Source: Oscillospiraceae bacterium
GTDB lineage: Bacteria > Bacillota > Clostridia > Oscillospirales > CAG-272
Assembly: GCA_015065335.1 (NCBI GenBank)
Contig: SVQM01000006.1
Coordinates: 1-42,826, forward strand
Length of the DNA stretch: 42,826 nt
Direction: 5' to 3'
The translations under genes were made by a program, and so were the position numbers. Shown piece by piece: positions 22,786-33,714 of this stretch. The notes under the pieces are model-generated. The model was not told the origin of the DNA. It did not search any database and saw nothing but the letters and a program-made list of their open reading frames with translations. Position 1 is the first letter of the stretch; every line of letters begins with the position of its first letter.

Positions 22786-23679
22786 ATGACTGATGAAAAC
22801 AAAGGCACACCGATAGTTAGCCTTAAAAACATAAATTTTGCATATCCCGGAGATGAGGATACTCCTCCCGTTCCGGTCCTCCATGATCTTTCCCTTGATG
22901 TTCATGAGGGAGAGTTCGTTGCCGTGCTCGGTCACAACGGATCGGGAAAATCTACCCTCGCAAAGCTCATTTGCATGGTACTTTCTCCCGACAGCGGATC
23001 TGTTATCGTACAGGGAAAGGATCTGTGCGGAGATGAGATTACCGAAAAAGATATTTACGCTGCACGGCGTGACATAGGTCTTGTTTTTCAGAATCCCGAC
23101 AATCAGCTTGTGGCAACTATCGTTGAAGAAGATGTCGCTTTCGGATGTGAAAACCTCGGTATCCCCTCTAAAGAAATACGCATACGTGTTGATGAAGCCC
23201 TTGCGGCTGTAGGGATGAGTGATTATGCCCGTTCTACCGTATATAAGCTCTCGGGCGGTCAGAAGCAGCGTGTTGCGATCGCAGGAGCACTTGCGATGAA
23301 AAGACGCCTCATCGTTTTCGATGAAAGTACAGCTATGCTTGATCCCTCGGGCAGACGTGAAGTCATGAAGGCTGTAGAACGCCTCAATAAGGAAGATGGC
23401 GTGACAGTTATCTTCATTACACATTACATGAACGAGGCTGCAATGGCTGACAGAGTAGTGGTGATGGACAGAGGTCGCATCGTAATGGACGGATCTCCGA
23501 GAGATGTATTTACAAATGTCAGTGAGCTGAGGGAGATAGGTCTTGACGTCCCTCAGACGACTGAGCTTCTTTATATGCTTAAATGTGACGGCTATGACGT
23601 TTCACTTGATGCAATAACTGTTGATGAATGCACAAATGAGCTGAAACGTCTTACCGGTAAATTTGAATTAAACGGCTGA
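22786..23679 (+). CDS. ecfA1: Energy-coupling factor transporter ATPase EcfA1
   Basis: LGHNGSGKSTLAKLI; VGLVFQNPDNQLVATIVEEDVAFGCENLGI; YKLSGGQKQRVAIAGALAM. Confidence 0.94.
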   Translation: MTDENKGTPIVSLKNINFAYPGDEDTPPVPVLHDLSLDVHEGEFVAVLGHNGSGKSTLAKLICMVLSPDSGSVIVQGKDLCGDEITEKDIYAARRDIGLVFQNPDNQLVATIVEEDVAFGCENLGIPSKEIRIRVDEALAAVGMSDYARSTVYKLSGGQKQRVAIAGALAMKRRLIVFDESTAMLDPSGRREVMKAVERLNKEDGVTVIFITHYMNEAAMADRVVVMDRGRIVMDGSPRDVFTNVSELREIGLDVPQTTELLYMLKCDGYDVSLDAITVDECTNELKRLTGKFELNG

Positions 23680-23698
23680 ATAGCCTTGGAGTATATTG

Positions 23699-24571
23699 AT
23701 GTCAATTCTTGAAGTGCGCGGAGTTTCCTTCAGCTATAAGGGAAGCGCCGCCGGAAAATGTGCATTAAAGGATATAGATCTATCCTTTCAGGATAATATG
23801 ATAACCGGCCTTATCGGTCATACCGGCTCGGGAAAGTCAACTCTTGTACAGATGTTCAACGGACTCCTGAAGCCCGATTCCGGTCAGATCCTGCTTGACG
23901 GTAAGGATATCTGGAGTGACGAAGTAAAAATAAGAGATGTCAGATTCCGTGTGGGGCTTGTCATGCAATACCCGGAATACCAGCTTTTTGCAGAAACAGT
24001 TGAGGCTGATATCGCATACGGTCCCGGTAATATGGGTATGTCCGACGATGAGATCTCAGATGCCGTCATAAAATCCGCAGGATTTGTAAATCTTGATCCT
24101 TCACAACTCAAAAAATCCCCCTTCGATCTTTCCGGCGGACAAAAAAGACGTGCTGCTCTGGCGGGAGTTATCGCTATGGGGCCGGAGATTCTTGTTCTCG
24201 ATGAGCCTGCAGCAGGACTTGATCCCGCAGGCAGACGTGAGATCCTCGGTAAAATAAAGGAATATCAGCGTGCTTCGGGTACTACTGTCATAATAGTCAG
24301 TCACAGTATGGAGGATATGGCTATGTACTGTGACAGAGTTGCCGTTTTGGCACAGGGCCGGCTTATGTTCGAAGGTACTACTCCGGAGGTATTCAGTCGC
24401 TATGACGAGCTTGTACGAGTAGGTCTTGATGTTCCGGAAATAACCCGTCTTGCCGCAAGGCTTGATGAAGAAGGCATCGGTATCGGTCGGGATGTCTATA
24501 CCGTTAAGTACGCCTACGAAAAATTTACCGAATTCCTCAAGGAATCGAAGGGAGGCGGTAAAAATGAATAG
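23699..24571 (+). CDS. ecfA2: Energy-coupling factor transporter ATPase EcfA2
   Basis: IGHTGSGKSTLVQMFNGLLKPDSG; VGLVMQYPEYQLFAETVEADIAYGPGNMG; FDLSGGQKRRAALAGVIAM. Confidence 0.94.
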   Translation: MSILEVRGVSFSYKGSAAGKCALKDIDLSFQDNMITGLIGHTGSGKSTLVQMFNGLLKPDSGQILLDGKDIWSDEVKIRDVRFRVGLVMQYPEYQLFAETVEADIAYGPGNMGMSDDEISDAVIKSAGFVNLDPSQLKKSPFDLSGGQKRRAALAGVIAMGPEILVLDEPAAGLDPAGRREILGKIKEYQRASGTTVIIVSHSMEDMAMYCDRVAVLAQGRLMFEGTTPEVFSRYDELVRVGLDVPEITRLAARLDEEGIGIGRDVYTVKYAYEKFTEFLKESKGGGKNE

Positions 24572-25391
24572 CGGCGCATCCTTCGGTCAGTATTTTGAAG
24601 GAAATTCATTTATTCACAGGCTTGATCCCCGAATCAAGCTCACTGCCTCGATCATATATATAGTCGTAATTTTTCTCGCCAAAAGTCTTTTTTCCTTTGC
24701 CTTGATACTTGCCGTAACATTGGGGCTTATGTTGTCCACGGGAATCCCATTCGGGCGTTTCATAAGAGGTCTCAGGCCCATCCTGTTCATTATGGCGTTT
24801 ACTGCGATCATCAATATCTTTTGGTATACCGGTGATACCTTGCTCGTCGATTTCTATTTTATTGAGATCTATCTTGAAGGTATAATAAACGCCGTTCTTA
24901 TTGCGCTTCGCATAATTTTTCTGATAGCCGGGACATCGGTGCTTCTCACATATACCACAACTCCTCTTGCACTTACCGATGGCCTTGAGAGCCTTCTCTC
25001 ACCACTGAAATATATTAAAGTACCCGTACATGATTTCGCAATGATGATGACGATCGCACTCAGGTTCATTCCTACACTTACCGAGGAGACTACAAAGATC
25101 ATGAATGCCCAAAAGGCAAGAGGTGCCGATTTCACCTCCGGCAGCTTTATAAAACGTGCAAAATCACTCATACCAATCCTCATACCTCTTCTCGTCTCTG
25201 CATTCAGGAGAGCAGAGGAGCTTGCAGATGCAATGGAATGCCGATGCTATACCGGCGGTGCGGGGCGAACAAGAATGAATGTGCTGAGAACTAAGCTTGC
25301 AGACTATATTTTTCTTTTCAGCATTATTACACTCGGTGCCGCAGTTGTCATTCTTAATATGTATGTTCCCGGAATCGCTCTGGGTATCTGA
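24564..25391 (+). CDS. ecfT: Energy-coupling factor transporter transmembrane protein EcfT
   Basis: FIHRLDPRIKLTASIIYIVVIFLAKSL; MTIALRFIPTLTEETTKIMNAQKARGADF; ELADAMECRCYTGGAGRT. Overlaps ecfA2. Confidence 0.94.
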   Translation: MNSGASFGQYFEGNSFIHRLDPRIKLTASIIYIVVIFLAKSLFSFALILAVTLGLMLSTGIPFGRFIRGLRPILFIMAFTAIINIFWYTGDTLLVDFYFIEIYLEGIINAVLIALRIIFLIAGTSVLLTYTTTPLALTDGLESLLSPLKYIKVPVHDFAMMMTIALRFIPTLTEETTKIMNAQKARGADFTSGSFIKRAKSLIPILIPLLVSAFRRAEELADAMECRCYTGGAGRTRMNVLRTKLADYIFLFSIITLGAAVVILNMYVPGIALGI

Positions 25392-25417
25392 ACGTATCCT
25401 TACAACGGAGGTAAAAG

Positions 25418-26206
25418 ATGAAGCTTGCAATATTAGTTAAATATCTCGGTACCTCCTTTGAGGGATTTCAGGCACAGCCATCGGGAAATACCATACAACA
25501 GCATCTTACTTCAGCATTTTCTGATTTTTTCGGTTTCGAATGTGCAGTAACCGGATGCAGCAGAACGGACAGCGGTGTTCATGCTAACGGCTTTGTTGCA
25601 ACTGTTATGCCCGTTGATCCCGTTATAGCTGAGAAAGAATGGTGCAATGTGCCGTGTGAAAAACTACACCGAGCAATATATCCGTTTCTTCATAATGACA
25701 TAGCCGTTATCGGAGCCGAAAACGTACCGAATACTTTTCATCCTCGATATGATGCAAAATATAAAGAATATATCTATATTATAAAAGATACTCCTGCAAA
25801 CGATCCGTTCCTTTCCGGAAGAGTATGGCATATCAAAAGGCCGGTTTCTAATGAAGAGCTTAGGAAAATGCAGGATGTATGCAGTCTTTTTGTCGGCAAA
25901 CATGATTTCGGAGCATTTATGTCAAAGGGATCATCTGTTACCGATACCGTCAGAGATCTGAAGTATGCTTCTATCGAAAGAATTGACGGACTCATCAGGT
26001 TTACCGTTTCTGCCGATGGATTTCTTTATAATATGGTAAGGATCATGGCTGGTACTCTTGTAGGTATTGCTTACGGGGAGGATATTGACGTAAGAGGCGC
26101 TCTGACTGTAAAAGACAGATCAAAGCTCGGAATAACTGCTCCGCCTTGCGGTCTGTATCTAAACCGTGTGATCTATGACCCCGAAATCGACTTCAAATGC
26201 AAATGA
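25418..26206 (+). CDS. truA: tRNA pseudouridine(38-40) synthase
   Basis: VKYLGTSFEGFQAQPSGNTIQQHL; GCSRTDSGVHANGFVATV; NTFHPRYDAKYKEYIYII; FLYNMVRIMAGTLVGIAYGE. Confidence 0.96.
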   Translation: MKLAILVKYLGTSFEGFQAQPSGNTIQQHLTSAFSDFFGFECAVTGCSRTDSGVHANGFVATVMPVDPVIAEKEWCNVPCEKLHRAIYPFLHNDIAVIGAENVPNTFHPRYDAKYKEYIYIIKDTPANDPFLSGRVWHIKRPVSNEELRKMQDVCSLFVGKHDFGAFMSKGSSVTDTVRDLKYASIERIDGLIRFTVSADGFLYNMVRIMAGTLVGIAYGEDIDVRGALTVKDRSKLGITAPPCGLYLNRVIYDPEIDFKCK

Positions 26207-26229
26207 TATTCAGCTAAAGGAGGTCCTCA

Positions 26230-27459
26230 ATGGCAAAAATAAGAAAAACTTCCGTTGTTGACAGCACTGCCTCCGTTGAAACAGAAGCTCCTGCTAATAA
26301 ATACTATCTGCTTATATCGGAAAGATATATGCGGGCAAAGTATTTTTTAATTATATTTCTCGTTCTGTTTTTGGCAATTGTTATTTTTCTTTTCAAGGTC
26401 AATATCACTTATGCTAATCTCATGTATCTGATGAGAGATCTTAATTCAGGTGATGCTTCGTATTCTGTAGGCTTTGATCCGATCAAATACGATGAGCAGG
26501 ACAACATGAATTTTACGATTTTCAGAGATGAGCTTGCCGTGATCGGTAACAGATCTCTGAAGTTCTACAATACAAAAGGCAAGGAAAACAGAAATTATGA
26601 GCTTGGATATCTTGATCCTGTGATCGTGTCATCGGATAAGTATCTTGTCGCTTACGATATAGGTACAGATTCATACTCTGTATTCACTTCTCTCGCTAAG
26701 GTAAACAGCGGAATTGCTGAAGGTAACATTGAGAGTGCACATGTCAATGATAAAGGAGAATATCTGCTCGTATGCCGTTCAGACGAAACTAAATATGTTG
26801 TGTACACTTTCGATTCTTCCTTCCGTGCCATTGCAAAATACTACAAAAACAGGTATATCACATCTGCCGCTATTTCTGAGGATTCAGATGTAGTTATCGC
26901 TTCCTTCAATTCTGACGGCACGGGATTCGACTGCGAGATCGAGCTGTATCGTGATGGTCAGGAATCTCCTGCAGAGGTATATAAAGAAAACGGTGTATTC
27001 CCCGTAAAATGCGGTATCTGGGATAACGGTGCATATTACGTTATATGTACAGACCGTGTTCTGTTCTTTGATAACAACGGAAGGCTTGTAAAAAATAACG
27101 TTCGGACCGGCGGATACACGTCATTTTCCGAGGGTGACGGTACTCTTGCACTTGCAGCTTCGGGTGATGTTCTCGGTGATACATCTGAAGTATCTGTATT
27201 TGACTCAACCGGTGAACTGCTGTATAATAATAGTATTGATAGCAGTATTTCATCCCTTGCTCTTTCTAAAAATGAAGTGTTTGTTCTGGCTGATGAGGCT
27301 GTATACATGATCTCCCTCGAAGATAATAAAACAGATATGATCGACCTTCCCGGTGGCGGTGATATGATATTTTTCACCGGATCCTCTGCACTTGTGTGCC
27401 GTAGAGACGGTGCTGAGGGAATCGATTTTTCAGATAGTGCTGCCGATAATGTAAAATAA
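26230..27459 (+). CDS. DUF5711-like protein: single TM plus predicted beta-propeller
   Basis: N-terminal TM AKYFLIIFLVLFLAIVIFLF followed by repetitive beta-rich extracytoplasmic sequence. Confidence 0.68.
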   Translation: MAKIRKTSVVDSTASVETEAPANKYYLLISERYMRAKYFLIIFLVLFLAIVIFLFKVNITYANLMYLMRDLNSGDASYSVGFDPIKYDEQDNMNFTIFRDELAVIGNRSLKFYNTKGKENRNYELGYLDPVIVSSDKYLVAYDIGTDSYSVFTSLAKVNSGIAEGNIESAHVNDKGEYLLVCRSDETKYVVYTFDSSFRAIAKYYKNRYITSAAISEDSDVVIASFNSDGTGFDCEIELYRDGQESPAEVYKENGVFPVKCGIWDNGAYYVICTDRVLFFDNNGRLVKNNVRTGGYTSFSEGDGTLALAASGDVLGDTSEVSVFDSTGELLYNNSIDSSISSLALSKNEVFVLADEAVYMISLEDNKTDMIDLPGGGDMIFFTGSSALVCRRDGAEGIDFSDSAADNVK

Positions 27460-27497
27460 TAACTAAAACTTTAACCATTATAAGAAAGGGAATAATA

Positions 27498-28235
27498 ATG
27501 ATCAGCTTTATTCTTGACGGTATTCTTATTGCAATTTGCGCCTTTGTGCTTTTTTTCAGCGTGAAGCGAGGATTTGTCAGAACAATCCTGTCCATCGTTT
27601 CTTCAGTTGCGGCGATCCTTATATCTGTCGTTTTTACTCCCACCGTTTCGGAATTTATTTACAATAAATTTCTTCTGAATTCCATAACATCAGGGATATC
27701 CGGTACAGTTTCGTCCCTTGCCGGATCTGATGACGGATCCGGTGTCATAAAACTCTTTGAGGATATGCCTGAGGCTTTTGACAATATTCTCACGAGATAC
27801 AATGTCAGTAATTCTTCTGCTGCCTCAATGCTTGAGGGTGCAAAAAACGGAACGGAAAATGTAAGCAGTATTTCCGAGAAGATCGCATCTCCGGTGGCTT
27901 CTACGATATCGAATGCACTTGCTTTTATTATCTGTTTTGTAGTTGCAATGATAATCCTTAAGATAATCATTGCAGTGATTGATAATTTCTTCAAGCTCCC
28001 TCTGCTTAATTCAGCAAATAAAACAGCAGGGGTAATTCTCGGTGTCGTGCTTGTCTTTGTAGTACTGTCAGTATACAGCAGTGTAGCAGTTCAGCTTGTT
28101 GATGCACTCGGATCAGTTTCACCGGAGCTTTTTGGAAAAAATGCTATTGACGGCACGATCATAGTTAAATTTTTCTCCGAGCATAACATATTCGGAATAA
28201 TAAAAGATGCTATTTCAAAAAACACAGTACTGTAA
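27498..28235 (+). CDS. CvpA family membrane protein
   Basis: SFILDGILIAICAFVLFFSVKRGFVRTILSIVSSVAAILISV; KLPLLNSANKTAGVILGVVLVFVVLSV. Confidence 0.85.
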   Translation: MISFILDGILIAICAFVLFFSVKRGFVRTILSIVSSVAAILISVVFTPTVSEFIYNKFLLNSITSGISGTVSSLAGSDDGSGVIKLFEDMPEAFDNILTRYNVSNSSAASMLEGAKNGTENVSSISEKIASPVASTISNALAFIICFVVAMIILKIIIAVIDNFFKLPLLNSANKTAGVILGVVLVFVVLSVYSSVAVQLVDALGSVSPELFGKNAIDGTIIVKFFSEHNIFGIIKDAISKNTVL

Positions 28236-28308
28236 ATAGCTGCAGGCGACTAATTAAAAATTAAAACAGGAGTGCCCCAATATCCCATAGGGGCGAAATT
28301 CAGAGCTG

Positions 28309-30633
28309 ATGATGGTTTGTTCAAGATGTCACAAAAGACCCGCTGTGGTCTTTATCACAAAATTAGAAGGTGGAGAATCCAAAAACGAAGGGCTTTGTAT
28401 TACATGTGCCCGTGAGCTTGGAATAAAGCCTGTAAACGATATTATTAAAAACATGGGACTCACTGATGAGGACCTGGAACGCATGGACGCCGATATTGAA
28501 AATCTTATGGAGAGCATGGGAGAAGGCGGGCTTCCCGATATTCTGCCTTTTGGTGGAGAATCTATGCCCGGTGATACCCCTGACGGAAAAGCCCCTGTCA
28601 TAAATTTTCAAAAGCTTTTGAAGGAAGGCTTTGGTGCCGCAGCCAACAAAAAAGGCGATAACAAGGAAAATAAGGGAGAATCCAAGGCCAAAAAGGAGCG
28701 AAAGTGCCTTGATACCTACTGTACTAATCTGACGGCGAAAGCCGCAGAAGGAAAGCTCGACCGTGTTGTAGGACGTGACCGTGATCTCGGGCGTGTCATA
28801 CAGATACTTTGCAGACGCCAGAAAAACAACCCTTGTCTTATCGGTGAACCGGGTGTCGGAAAGACTGCGATCGCCGAGGCTCTTGCACAGCGCATCGTAA
28901 ACGGTAATGTTCCGTACATTCTTAAAAACTGTGAGGTATATCTCCTTGATCTTACTGCCCTAGTAGCCGGTACTCAGTTCAGGGGTCAGTTTGAGTCGAG
29001 AGTTCTCACTCTACTCAATGAGATAAAGGCTGCAGGAAATATTATTCTTGTCATTGACGAAGTGCATAATATCGTAGGTGCAGGAGATGCAGAAGGTAGT
29101 ATGAATGCCGCAAATATCCTAAAGCCCGCATTGTCTCGGGGTGAGATTCAGGTGATCGGTGCTACCACTCTTAAGGAATACAGGAAATTCATCGAAAAGG
29201 ATTCTGCACTTGAGCGTCGTTTCCAACCTGTTACGGTAAATGAACCCAGTATCAAGGACACCGAGGAGATTCTTCGCGGCATCAAGCATTATTACGAAAC
29301 ATTCCACGGTATAAATATACCTGACAATATTCTTTCATGGGCTGTACGCCTCAGTGAAAGATATATAACCGACAGATTCCTTCCCGATAAGGCTATCGAT
29401 CTTCTGGATGAGGCAGCATCGCACATATCTCTTTCCAGCAGAGCCATCAACGAAAGAAGGGAAGCTATCGACCGAAAAAATGAGCTTGAGAGAAATCTTT
29501 CCGATATCGAAAGCAAGCCTCCTCAGCCTGATGCCGATCAGTCTGCCACGGAAGAATACTACAAAAATATAGCTGATATGAAAGCCGGGATCATACGTCT
29601 CACAGATCAGATCGACTCACTCAAGGAAGAATGCGACTCCGTCACAATGGAGATTTCCGATCTTGCGGACGTTATTGAGATATGGACAGGCATCCCTGCC
29701 TCAACCATAAATGAAGATGAATTTGACCGTCTTGAACAGCTTGAAGAAAGACTTTCCTCAAAGATCATCGGTCAGGGAGAGGCGGTATCTGCCGTCGCTC
29801 GTGCGATCAAACGTCGCCGTGCAGGTGTTTCTGCAGCCAGACGTCCTGTATCATTCATTTTTGCAGGTCCCACAGGTGTTGGTAAAACTGAGCTTGTAAA
29901 AGTGCTCTCACGGGATCTGTTTTCTACCCCGGATAATCTCGTGAGACTTGATATGAGTGAATACATGGACAAATTCTCCGTGTCAAGAATCGTTGGCTCT
30001 CCTCCCGGATATGTGGGATATGACGACGCAGGACAGCTCACTGAGCGTATCAGAAGACATCCGTATTCGGTAGTTCTTTTCGATGAGATCGAAAAAGCAC
30101 ATCCCGATGTAATGAATATCATGCTGCAGATCCTTGATGACGGACGTATTACCGACTCTGCAGGCCGCGAAGTTAATTTCGAAAATACAGTTATCGTGAT
30201 GACTACCAATGCCGGTGCTCTCGGAGGAAATGCTTATGCCGGCTTTACAAAAGAAGAAAATGGCCGTGATCACGAGAGAACCATGAAAGCCCTCTCCGGA
30301 TTCCTTCGTCCCGAATTCATCAACAGAGTTGATGAGATCATCACTTTCCGTCACCTTGAAAAAGATGACTTCAAAAAGATCGCATCACTTCTTCTTGATG
30401 AGCTTGCCGATGCATTGCGTGATAAGGGGGTATCATTCGGTTACTCCGACACCGCTGCTATGTTCATTGCCAATGAATCTTATTCCGTTAAATACGGTGC
30501 CAGAAATATGCGCAGATACATCCAGACAAAGGTAGAGGATATGATCGCCTCTGAAATGATAAGCTCAAAGGGAAAGCTGTCATCCGTATTCCTTGATGTT
30601 ACGGACGGCAAGCTGACTGTTGAATCTTTATAA
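28309..30633 (+). CDS. ClpE-like Clp ATPase: N-terminal zinc finger plus two AAA+ modules, no Clp_N repeats
   Basis: CSRCHKRPAVVFITKLEGGESKNEGLCITCARELGI CxxC/CxxC; Walker A GEPGVGKTA and GPTGVGKTE; MSEYMDKFSVSRIVGSPPGYVGYDDAGQLTE. Confidence 0.9.
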   Translation: MMVCSRCHKRPAVVFITKLEGGESKNEGLCITCARELGIKPVNDIIKNMGLTDEDLERMDADIENLMESMGEGGLPDILPFGGESMPGDTPDGKAPVINFQKLLKEGFGAAANKKGDNKENKGESKAKKERKCLDTYCTNLTAKAAEGKLDRVVGRDRDLGRVIQILCRRQKNNPCLIGEPGVGKTAIAEALAQRIVNGNVPYILKNCEVYLLDLTALVAGTQFRGQFESRVLTLLNEIKAAGNIILVIDEVHNIVGAGDAEGSMNAANILKPALSRGEIQVIGATTLKEYRKFIEKDSALERRFQPVTVNEPSIKDTEEILRGIKHYYETFHGINIPDNILSWAVRLSERYITDRFLPDKAIDLLDEAASHISLSSRAINERREAIDRKNELERNLSDIESKPPQPDADQSATEEYYKNIADMKAGIIRLTDQIDSLKEECDSVTMEISDLADVIEIWTGIPASTINEDEFDRLEQLEERLSSKIIGQGEAVSAVARAIKRRRAGVSAARRPVSFIFAGPTGVGKTELVKVLSRDLFSTPDNLVRLDMSEYMDKFSVSRIVGSPPGYVGYDDAGQLTERIRRHPYSVVLFDEIEKAHPDVMNIMLQILDDGRITDSAGREVNFENTVIVMTTNAGALGGNAYAGFTKEENGRDHERTMKALSGFLRPEFINRVDEIITFRHLEKDDFKKIASLLLDELADALRDKGVSFGYSDTAAMFIANESYSVKYGARNMRRYIQTKVEDMIASEMISSKGKLSSVFLDVTDGKLTVESL

Positions 30634-30647
30634 TCATTGGAGTAGCT

Positions 30648-32789
30648 ATGGATAATGGTACAGGATGGAAGAAAAAACACCCATCTGAGATCATGAGAGC
30701 CCTTGGATCTGATGAATCCGTCGGACTGAGACGAAGATCTGTCAGTGAGCTCAGACACAGGCTCGGAAAGAATGATCTGTGGAATACCGGACACCCTCTT
30801 ATGTTCTTCAGAACCGAAAGCGGTTTTTCCGTTGTCGGATGTATTGTAATGGTTATATCCGCACTTTCTGCGGCTGCATTTGAAAAATGCAGTGACGCAC
30901 TGTTTATCTTTCTTTCGTTGTTTGCCGGATGTGTTGTCACATTTGCTGTTTATATCTCATGTGGTATCCTTTGCAAAAAGAACTGCAGTAAATGGATCCC
31001 CGTATGTACCGTCATGCGTGAGGGGAAAATCATCGTAATACGTGCAGACGCTCTTGTTTCCGGTGATATCGTTATGCTCTCAGGAGGAGATACTGTTTGT
31101 GCAGATCTCAAGCTTATTGAGGCTGATGAGCTGTTTGTAAAAGATATCTCTCTAAATAAAAATGATAATATCGTACAAAAATATTCCGCATACGGTGCAC
31201 TTATCTCAGATGAACAAGCCATGCCCGACGATTTTATCTGTGCAGGCTCACAGATCATTTCCGGAAGTGCAAAAGCTGTTGTATGTGCTGTAGGTGAGAG
31301 AACTGATATCGGAAAGAAAAGAAAGATAAATCTTATCCCTCAAGCCGAACCTCAGGAGCTTCGTGTTTCACGAAAGCTCGGTACAGCTACAGGTACATTT
31401 GCAATGATATTTGCTTTTGTTGCGGTGGTAATAGGTGTATTTTCACCTTTTTTGGCAACTGATTTCATCGGACTTCTTCTTATTTTTCTTGCTTATGCAG
31501 TTTCTGCAGGCGGTGAGCTTATCTCGATCTTGTGCTGTCTCAAATACGTTCTTTCCATGCGTTTTTGTGCCGATAACGACGTTGTCGTGCGAGATATTGG
31601 TGCTCTGGAATACTTTATTTCATGTGACGGTATCGCTGTTGAAAATTCGTCTTTGATGAAAACAGGTACTTCCAAACTGAATTTATCTTTTGCATCAGAT
31701 AAGATCATTGAGCCCGGAAGCATTGAAGGTGATGAATTATTCTCTCTCCTTTACACGGGAACCGGATACGGAAAAGGGAAGTACGGCTCCGAAGTAGTAC
31801 GGTCACTGACGGAGCATCTATCCGACAGATGTGATTATCAAAAATTTGTATCGGGCATTGAGACGACCAAGATCGTTCTCGAACACAAATCTGTCGGTGG
31901 AGTACACAATTGTCTCTATGCCTCGGGCGGAGAATACTATTTTTTGCTTACCGGAGCCATTGATGAGGTCATTAGTAAATGTACGAAGCTCAGTACGCCT
32001 AACGGTTTTTCTGCCCTTGACAGAAGTATTCTTTCTGATATCCTCAGTGCGGCATCGGATGCATCAAAAAATTCCAATTCACTCATTGCAGTCGCTGTCA
32101 GAAAATCGCCGTACAACAGTATGAAGCGTATGTCTGTGCTGGCAAACGATCTTGCTTTTGTAGGATTTATTGCAGTTGATACACCTGCTGATCCAAGACT
32201 TGTTTCCGATCTTGCATTTCTCAAAAGGGAACACGTTCCGTTTTTTCATTTTACAGACGGAAGTGGTGAGGAGGTAAGCTTCGCACGCCGTGCCGGTATA
32301 ATAAACAGCAGGGACGATCTTGTATTCGGCAATGATCCCGACACAGCTGTCACAAAGCTTCTTTCTGAAAAAAGCTACGGCGGTACTGTTTGTATCGGTG
32401 ATGAGAGTGAGATGTCTGCTGTTCTCGGTTCTGCAAAAAATGCAGGAAAAAGACTTATTTGCATCGGGAATTCCGACCATATGCGCACATCAGGCTTGTC
32501 TGTAGTAACAGGGAAACCTCTTCCGGGAACAGGCGCTTTTGTCTCCTGCGGTGAGAATAAATGTGTGACTGCTGTTATAGGAATTATTAAGATCCTCGGT
32601 GAAATGTCACGAAGATTCGGTGCAGCGAAAAAATATCTCACCATATCTGCTGTAGTACGTGCTGTATTTGCCGCCTCAGTTTTATTCGGAGTTCCTTATG
32701 TTTACCCTTCAATAATTCTTGCATGGGGCTTCTTGCTTGATTTTGCCGTGGCAGCGGCGATCCTATCACTTGGTCACAAAAAATCATAA
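30648..32789 (+). CDS. P-type ATPase-like protein lacking catalytic motifs (predicted pseudoenzyme)
   Basis: Intact 713 aa ORF with P2-type layout (cation ATPase N-domain, M1-M2, actuator DALVSGDIVMLSGGDTVCADLKLIEADELFVKDISLNKND, M3-M4, P/N region, M5-M6) but with DKTGTLT, TGES, PEGLP and GDGxND all replaced. Confidence 0.82.
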   Translation: MDNGTGWKKKHPSEIMRALGSDESVGLRRRSVSELRHRLGKNDLWNTGHPLMFFRTESGFSVVGCIVMVISALSAAAFEKCSDALFIFLSLFAGCVVTFAVYISCGILCKKNCSKWIPVCTVMREGKIIVIRADALVSGDIVMLSGGDTVCADLKLIEADELFVKDISLNKNDNIVQKYSAYGALISDEQAMPDDFICAGSQIISGSAKAVVCAVGERTDIGKKRKINLIPQAEPQELRVSRKLGTATGTFAMIFAFVAVVIGVFSPFLATDFIGLLLIFLAYAVSAGGELISILCCLKYVLSMRFCADNDVVVRDIGALEYFISCDGIAVENSSLMKTGTSKLNLSFASDKIIEPGSIEGDELFSLLYTGTGYGKGKYGSEVVRSLTEHLSDRCDYQKFVSGIETTKIVLEHKSVGGVHNCLYASGGEYYFLLTGAIDEVISKCTKLSTPNGFSALDRSILSDILSAASDASKNSNSLIAVAVRKSPYNSMKRMSVLANDLAFVGFIAVDTPADPRLVSDLAFLKREHVPFFHFTDGSGEEVSFARRAGIINSRDDLVFGNDPDTAVTKLLSEKSYGGTVCIGDESEMSAVLGSAKNAGKRLICIGNSDHMRTSGLSVVTGKPLPGTGAFVSCGENKCVTAVIGIIKILGEMSRRFGAAKKYLTISAVVRAVFAASVLFGVPYVYPSIILAWGFLLDFAVAAAILSLGHKKS

Positions 32790-32880: not shown

Positions 32881-33714
32881 ATGGCAGACGAGAACAACTG
32901 CACACATGACTGTTCTACCTGCTCGGCAAACTGCTCTTCAAGAGAACAGCAGGCGCCCACATTTGAGGCTCCCCATGCGGGATCCAAGATCAAACGAGTT
33001 ATCGGTATCGTTAGCGGAAAGGGAGGAGTAGGTAAATCTATCGTTACCTCCATGCTGTCCGTTATCATGCAGCGTAGAGGACTTAAGACCGCTATCCTTG
33101 ATGCGGATATTACAGGTCCTTCCATCCCAAAGGCTTTTGGCGTAAAGGGACAGGTCTACACCGTAGGTGACGGTCTTATGCCTCTTGAAAGCACCACCGG
33201 TATCAAGGTGATGTCTCTCAATCTTCTTCTCGAAGAAGAGACTCGTCCGGTAGTATGGAGAGGCCCCGTTATTGCAGGAGCTGTTAAGCAGTTCTGGACA
33301 GACGTTATCTGGGAAGATGTAGACTATATGTTCGTTGATATGCCTCCCGGAACGGGTGATGTGCCTTTGACCGTGTTCCAGTCTATTCCTCTTGACGGAA
33401 TCGTTGTTGTAACAACTCCTCAGGATCTTGTTTCAATGATCGTTGAGAAAGCGCTCAACATGGCAAAGCTGATGAATATTCCGATCCTCGGAATCGTTGA
33501 GAACATGGCTTATGTCGAGTGTCCCGATTGCGGAAAAAAGATCAATGTTTTCGGCGGTACAGACCGTGACAATATCGACGGATGCCCCATCATCGGAAAG
33601 CTTCCTCTTGATCCCAAGCTTGCGGCACTTTGCGACAAGGGTATTATCGAGCTCATGGAGAACGATTACCTTGACGCTGCAGCGGATAAGATCGAAGCCT
33701 CTTTTGAGAAATAA
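32881..33714 (+). CDS. Mrp/ApbC/NBP35-family Fe-S cluster carrier ATPase with N-terminal Cys cluster
   Basis: CTHDCSTCSANCSS; GIVSGKGGVGKSIVTSML; ILDADITGPSIPKAFGV; YMFVDMPPGTGDVPLTVFQ; CPDCGKKINVFGG. Confidence 0.95.
   Translation: MADENNCTHDCSTCSANCSSREQQAPTFEAPHAGSKIKRVIGIVSGKGGVGKSIVTSMLSVIMQRRGLKTAILDADITGPSIPKAFGVKGQVYTVGDGLMPLESTTGIKVMSLNLLLEEETRPVVWRGPVIAGAVKQFWTDVIWEDVDYMFVDMPPGTGDVPLTVFQSIPLDGIVVVTTPQDLVSMIVEKALNMAKLMNIPILGIVENMAYVECPDCGKKINVFGGTDRDNIDGCPIIGKLPLDPKLAALCDKGIIELMENDYLDAAADKIEASFEK

Follow-up and report, generated by a model that had tools for sequence, protein, structure and literature searches.

The protein encoded at positions 30648-32789 on the forward strand of the window (the whole 42,826-nucleotide stretch of DNA analysed here) belongs, almost certainly as judged from sequence, predicted fold and evolution, to a conserved family of pseudoenzymes within the P-type ATPases. 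The defining feature of this superfamily is a phosphorylated Asp, and a large, old and selected lineage without this residue would be, as far as we found, the first described pseudoenzyme family of the superfamily. The best overall explanation, which we regard as equally likely to be right or wrong, is a neofunctionalised pseudo-ATPase with a locked membrane domain that serves as a scaffold or adaptor for the neighbouring ClpE-type unfoldase.

Results

The open reading frame starts with ATG, is intact and encodes 713 residues with A, P and N domains and membrane helices M1-M6. The protein stops after M6, with 91 nt between its stop codon and mrp, and its relatives are about 200 residues longer; the loss of M7-M10 is shared by only a few other members. 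The Pfam family E1-E2_ATPase matches residues 119-307 above the gathering score (2.5e-17; 6e-25 to 8e-24 in relatives), and among solved structures LMCA1 matches best (2e-18). NCBIfam gives weak matches to P3B, P2A and P3A pumps, all far under cut-off: about 75 bits against 611 for the top match, TIGR01524, and 73 and 62 bits for the P2A Ca2+-ATPase families TIGR01522 and TIGR01116, against curated cut-offs of 798 and 703. AlphaFold gave confident models both for the window protein (pLDDT 85.8, pTM 0.80) and for a full-length family member (pLDDT 86.4, pTM 0.83), with the A, P and N domains and the M1-M6 core. Foldseek matched both over their whole length to PDB structures of SERCA-phospholamban (TM 0.79), SPCA1, MgtA and LMCA1, with MgtA (8uy7) as the first fold match of the window protein; the conformation picked by AlphaFold was given no weight as evidence. 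The window protein is thus a true P-type ATPase homologue, and the profile search and structural comparison that the earlier note had proposed agree with its reading of an intact frame with P-type layout and no M7-M10.

A motif scan found none of DKTGT, TGES, PEGL, KGA, TGD and GDGxND anywhere in the window frame. An alignment of 76 pseudo homologues with seven canonical sequences identified what stands in their place. The position of LTGES reads L169-N170-K171-N172-D173 (actuator loop N170-D173, 31155-31166, forward strand, as are all features below), that of PEGL in M4 reads G289-E290-L291-I292, and that of TGD reads T536-D537-G538, all three as first noticed from the sequence. E290 (31515-31517) is the equivalent of SERCA E309, and the Pro that precedes it in pumps is replaced by Gly. 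The earlier note was also right that DKTGT and GDGxND are lost, but it erred in where two of the columns lie. It had taken D327 for a retained catalytic Asp; the column aligns without gaps to E332 (31641-31643). In the model this residue lies where strand 328-331 ends C-terminally, a site that in pumps belongs to the phosphorylated Asp, so the window protein has not kept the Asp. The GDGxND region, which had been placed at 'VTGKPLPG...', aligns to I606-G607-N608. In M5 the canonical Glu (SERCA E771) is replaced by R671 (32658-32660), and in M6 (G694 to D698, 32727-32741) the equivalent of SERCA N796 is Gly and that of D800 is kept.

The same replacements recur in related genomes, and these homologues rule out that the window frame is an isolated oddity. 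In a first search of 97 related genomes most best matches lacked all the motifs, and a profile built from 26 motif-less matches and run on 297 genomes gave strong matches in much of the family to which the window belongs. The fetched loci hold 77 non-redundant motif-less proteins, mostly of 850-1230 residues, and 10 canonical ones. The two-way split is clean: the complete canonical proteins have all six motifs, and DKTGT or GDGxND occurs in no motif-less protein. Canonical pumps in the same and in other genomes keep their motifs. The catalytic Asp is present in one of the 76 family members, with Pro in 41 and Glu in four; the TGES Glu is kept in seven, and GDGxND is missing in all pseudo members checked. 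The nucleotide pocket of the N domain is lost as well, since FDSxRKMM is gone and the KGA Lys is found once, mostly replaced by Arg. In the membrane, the M4 position is Glu in 61/76 and acidic in 65/76, with the M4 Pro in 1/76. The M5 Glu has become Arg (63/76) or Lys (7/76), and the M5 Phe has become Tyr (73/76). In M6, Asn is replaced by Gly (71/76) and Thr by hydrophobic residues, and Asp is present in 70/76. DN is replaced by GG (72/76 at the first position, 69/76 at the second). The triad of M4 Glu, M5 Arg or Lys and M6 Asp is found in 61 of the 76, and the same columns read E-E-D in five and E-G-D in two of the seven canonical proteins.

Conservation across the family is strongest in the actuator domain and the membrane helices. 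For unsaturated close pairs of relatives (dS 0.49-0.77), dN/dS is 0.042-0.089, which indicates purifying selection. Nearly all homologues, from dozens of genera, are intact frames; one split copy was seen (L218; in G183 of genus g45 the gene is split into two frames). The low dN/dS, the open frames and the fixed new residues rule out a family of decaying pseudogenes, and lineage-specific replacements that have become fixed point to a new function, not to decay. This supports the conserved pseudoenzyme first proposed, whose losses were predicted to be fixed in orthologues with intact frames, non-neutral dN/dS and no surviving motif. Some pseudo-ATPases (L038, L045, L052, L086) have 100-300 extra C-terminal residues, charged or of low complexity; no Pfam domain was found in this part of the L038 protein. 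AuxB was considered as a relative from a weak NCBIfam match of one member and was dropped, as none of ten members tested gave this match again.

Directly upstream, across a gap of 14 nt, lies a gene for a ClpE-type AAA+ unfoldase (28309-30633) with an N-terminal zinc finger, two AAA modules and an AGF tripeptide in the ClpP loop. It is preceded by genes for a CvpA (Colicin_V) family membrane protein (27498-28235) and a DUF5711 protein (26230-27459), both conserved in the operon, and by ecfA1-ecfA2-ecfT-truA (22786-26206), named from sequence appearance and order. The gene next downstream encodes an Mrp/NUBPL-type iron-sulfur carrier ATPase (32881-33714), an adjacency found in some relatives only. 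The block from ecfA1 to clpE (22786-30633 in the window; L120-L175) is order-wide and independent of the pseudo-ATPase. Many relatives have a frame of about 190 residues between cvpA and clpE.

For all genera but one in which both loci could be read, the pseudo-ATPase gene is the next gene 3' of clpE and has the same orientation. Over 53 non-identical clpE loci the median distance between the two genes is 15 nt, and in six they overlap; the synteny suspected from the window alone extends to named genome records. The exception is genus g45 (G044, G139, G183, G226), where the contigs place it elsewhere than clpE. Twelve clpE loci of the window's family are without a pseudo-ATPase, and several genera keep clpE alone; profiles run on the downstream genes found no gene remnant 3' of clpE in genera without the pseudo-ATPase. 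The ClpE-type unfoldase is apparently intact, to judge from the patterns of Walker A in the first (92/95) and second module (84/95) and of the xGF loop (92/95), and the window genome encodes clpP. HAD-like genes were seen at two loci: the relocated pseudo-ATPase gene of g45 overlaps an upstream HAD-like hydrolase gene with a DFDGT motif (L062:1344-2021), and one lies directly 3' of clpE at a locus without pseudo-ATPase (L127:7308-7940).

The hosts are uncultured anaerobic Clostridia of dozens of genera, mostly from gut and rumen. Besides the window's family, two more families of its order have motif-less proteins (loci L141, L159, L100 and L175). Scans of the class (388 genomes) and phylum (299), together 687 genomes of which part belong to the window's order, returned as best matches at the threshold used canonical pumps only, none adjoining clpE, which argues against a wider spread. 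The family is confined to one order and to three families within it. A scan of named genomes with an alignment as query gave 30 loci, all motif-less, in MAGs of uncultured Clostridia from rumen, gut and digesters; a contig scan of named genomes with a single protein as query gave no match. One of the records (L192) carries the clostridial operon under the title Candidatus Colimorpha enterica (Bacteroidales per NCBI), a label that is probably wrong.

In a pump tree with long branches and a P2A-like canonical set, a branch with 100% support separates the pseudo-ATPases from the seven canonical sequences. Mapped on the clpE tree, their presence takes 9 changes, compared with 30 for shuffled patterns, which is consistent with one early gain and several losses, gain and loss not being strictly separable. 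The trees also show that the pseudo-ATPase evolves faster than ClpE. Genome G011 has two pairs of clpE and pseudo-ATPase (L047, L171), both at contig edges and with pseudo-ATPases 70% identical, which reflects either duplication or mixed strains.

Discussion

Our data suggest that an ion pump was converted to a role as scaffold, sensor or adaptor. The ancestor was a P2/P3-type cation pump, and its descendants have lost autophosphorylation with DKTGT and GDGxND, dephosphorylation with TGES, and the FDSxRKMM nucleotide pocket, keeping the actuator fold and the membrane helices. Because the phosphorylation, dephosphorylation and nucleotide motifs are all gone, no transport cycle is expected. The triad columns are those of SERCA E309, E771 and D800, which coordinate Ca2+ in SERCA. 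By homology, the M5 Arg or Lys would lie between the M4 Glu and the M6 Asp and could form a salt bridge in place of the ion, as a built-in counter-ion. Such a bridge probably locks the membrane domain and would preclude a transport cycle.

The large cytosolic A/N/P head may then act as a scaffold or adaptor that brings ClpE (with ClpP) or its substrates to the membrane. We favour this role because the gene constantly found next to it encodes a ClpE-type unfoldase that appears intact and because clpP is present in the genome; the pseudo-ATPase has travelled with clpE since an ancestor of the lineage, and the two genes are probably co-transcribed. For a membrane scaffold or adaptor role with ClpE, which we infer from synteny, the chances are evenly balanced; our confidence is moderate because genus g45 is an exception, the gene has been lost in places and the operon holds further genes. 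The faster evolution of the pseudo-ATPase than of ClpE also counts against this role. ClpE itself does not depend on the pseudo-ATPase, since several genera keep clpE without it, and the link may be one of expression only, as the operon also holds ecfA/T, truA, DUF5711 and cvpA. The most specific form of the proposal, a family in which a Glu-Arg-Asp salt bridge has replaced the ion site and the dead pump is a dedicated membrane adaptor of ClpE(P), is put forward tentatively, as rather less probable.

The upstream genes could also be taken as the true partners, with the protein as a scaffold for the CvpA/DUF5711 part of the operon, at the membrane or envelope, its neighbours being co-expressed with no physical link to ClpE. 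Both gene families do lie just upstream across the order, and g45 has the pseudo-ATPase without an adjoining clpE, but wherever the upstream gene is readable outside g45 it is clpE and not cvpA, often with a short gap or an overlap; we regard this as unlikely, at perhaps one chance in a handful. Slightly less likely is an ion or pH sensor, in which a proton or cation would still be bound by the M4 Glu and M6 Asp and would thereby move the A/N/P head, as a signal to ClpE or to CvpA/DUF5711 without ATP hydrolysis. Retention of the M4 acid and the M6 Asp despite lost catalysis would fit a sensor, and P3A proton pumps also have an M5-Arg/M6-Asp pair. However, the M5 Arg or Lys would neutralise the site, ion ligands have been removed by the changes of M6 Asn to Gly and M6 Thr to hydrophobic residues, and about 15% of members have no M4 acid.

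It is improbable that the window copy alone is decaying, with M7-M10 deleted and the family functional elsewhere. Its 713 residues against some 900 in most relatives and its branch of 2.35 against a median of 0.77 point that way, and the 97 related genomes searched held no congeneric genome for dN/dS. On the other hand, no stop interrupts the 713 codons, which none of 2000 base shuffles reproduced, GC by codon position resembles that of the genes around it, the protein retains the E290-R671-D698 triad as well as G694 and Y663, and short intact members exist in other genera (L120, 698 aa; L121, 684 aa; L129, 757 aa). That the protein is an active pump with non-canonical motifs is hardly credible: the overall fold is kept, but the Pro and few Glu at the phosphorylation site leave no conserved alternative acidic nucleophile, and TGES and GDGxND have disappeared along with the nucleotide pocket.

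Of known pumps, the P2A Ca2+-ATPases (LMCA1, PMR1/SPCA, SERCA) have in common with the pseudo-ATPases the domain order, Cation_ATPase_N, the actuator and membrane folds, the M4 Glu and the M6 Asp, and the best NCBIfam matches of pseudo-ATPases are often PMR1-type. They differ in that the pseudo-ATPases lack the phosphorylation site, TGES, GDGxND and the nucleotide motif, have Arg or Lys in M5 and score far under every curated cut-off. The likeness to MgtA-type P3B Mg2+-ATPases lies in the first fold match and in TIGR01524, also the top match of several relatives, but the score is far below cut-off and the catalytic motifs are lost. The M5/M6 pair is shared with P3A H+-ATPases, whose catalytic machinery the pseudo-ATPases lack, their overall sequence being nearer to P2A/P3B. 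We know of no P-type ATPase family with conserved loss of catalysis, and none was described in the open literature searched. A 2023 review (PMC10654040) lists families P1-P6 and, in the passages found, goes no further than to speculate on scaffold roles for P4B. Pseudokinases and pseudophosphatases, according to PMC7586955 and PMC8269279, are conserved with fold kept and catalysis lost, and act as scaffolds or regulators; the pseudo-ATPases belong to a different superfamily and follow a like principle.

In this family nature provides separation-of-function variants of a pump fold that would then be useful without transport, and the family may connect ClpE with the membrane in a large group of uncultured gut bacteria. 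The pseudo-ATPase is not the sole pump-like gene of the window genome, since two other P-type ATPase genes, L002 (partial, at a contig edge) and L003, carry DKTGT. In genome G007 (L039:3885-6671; L190) a canonical P-type ATPase gene with all motifs adjoins the pseudo-ATPase gene in convergent orientation.
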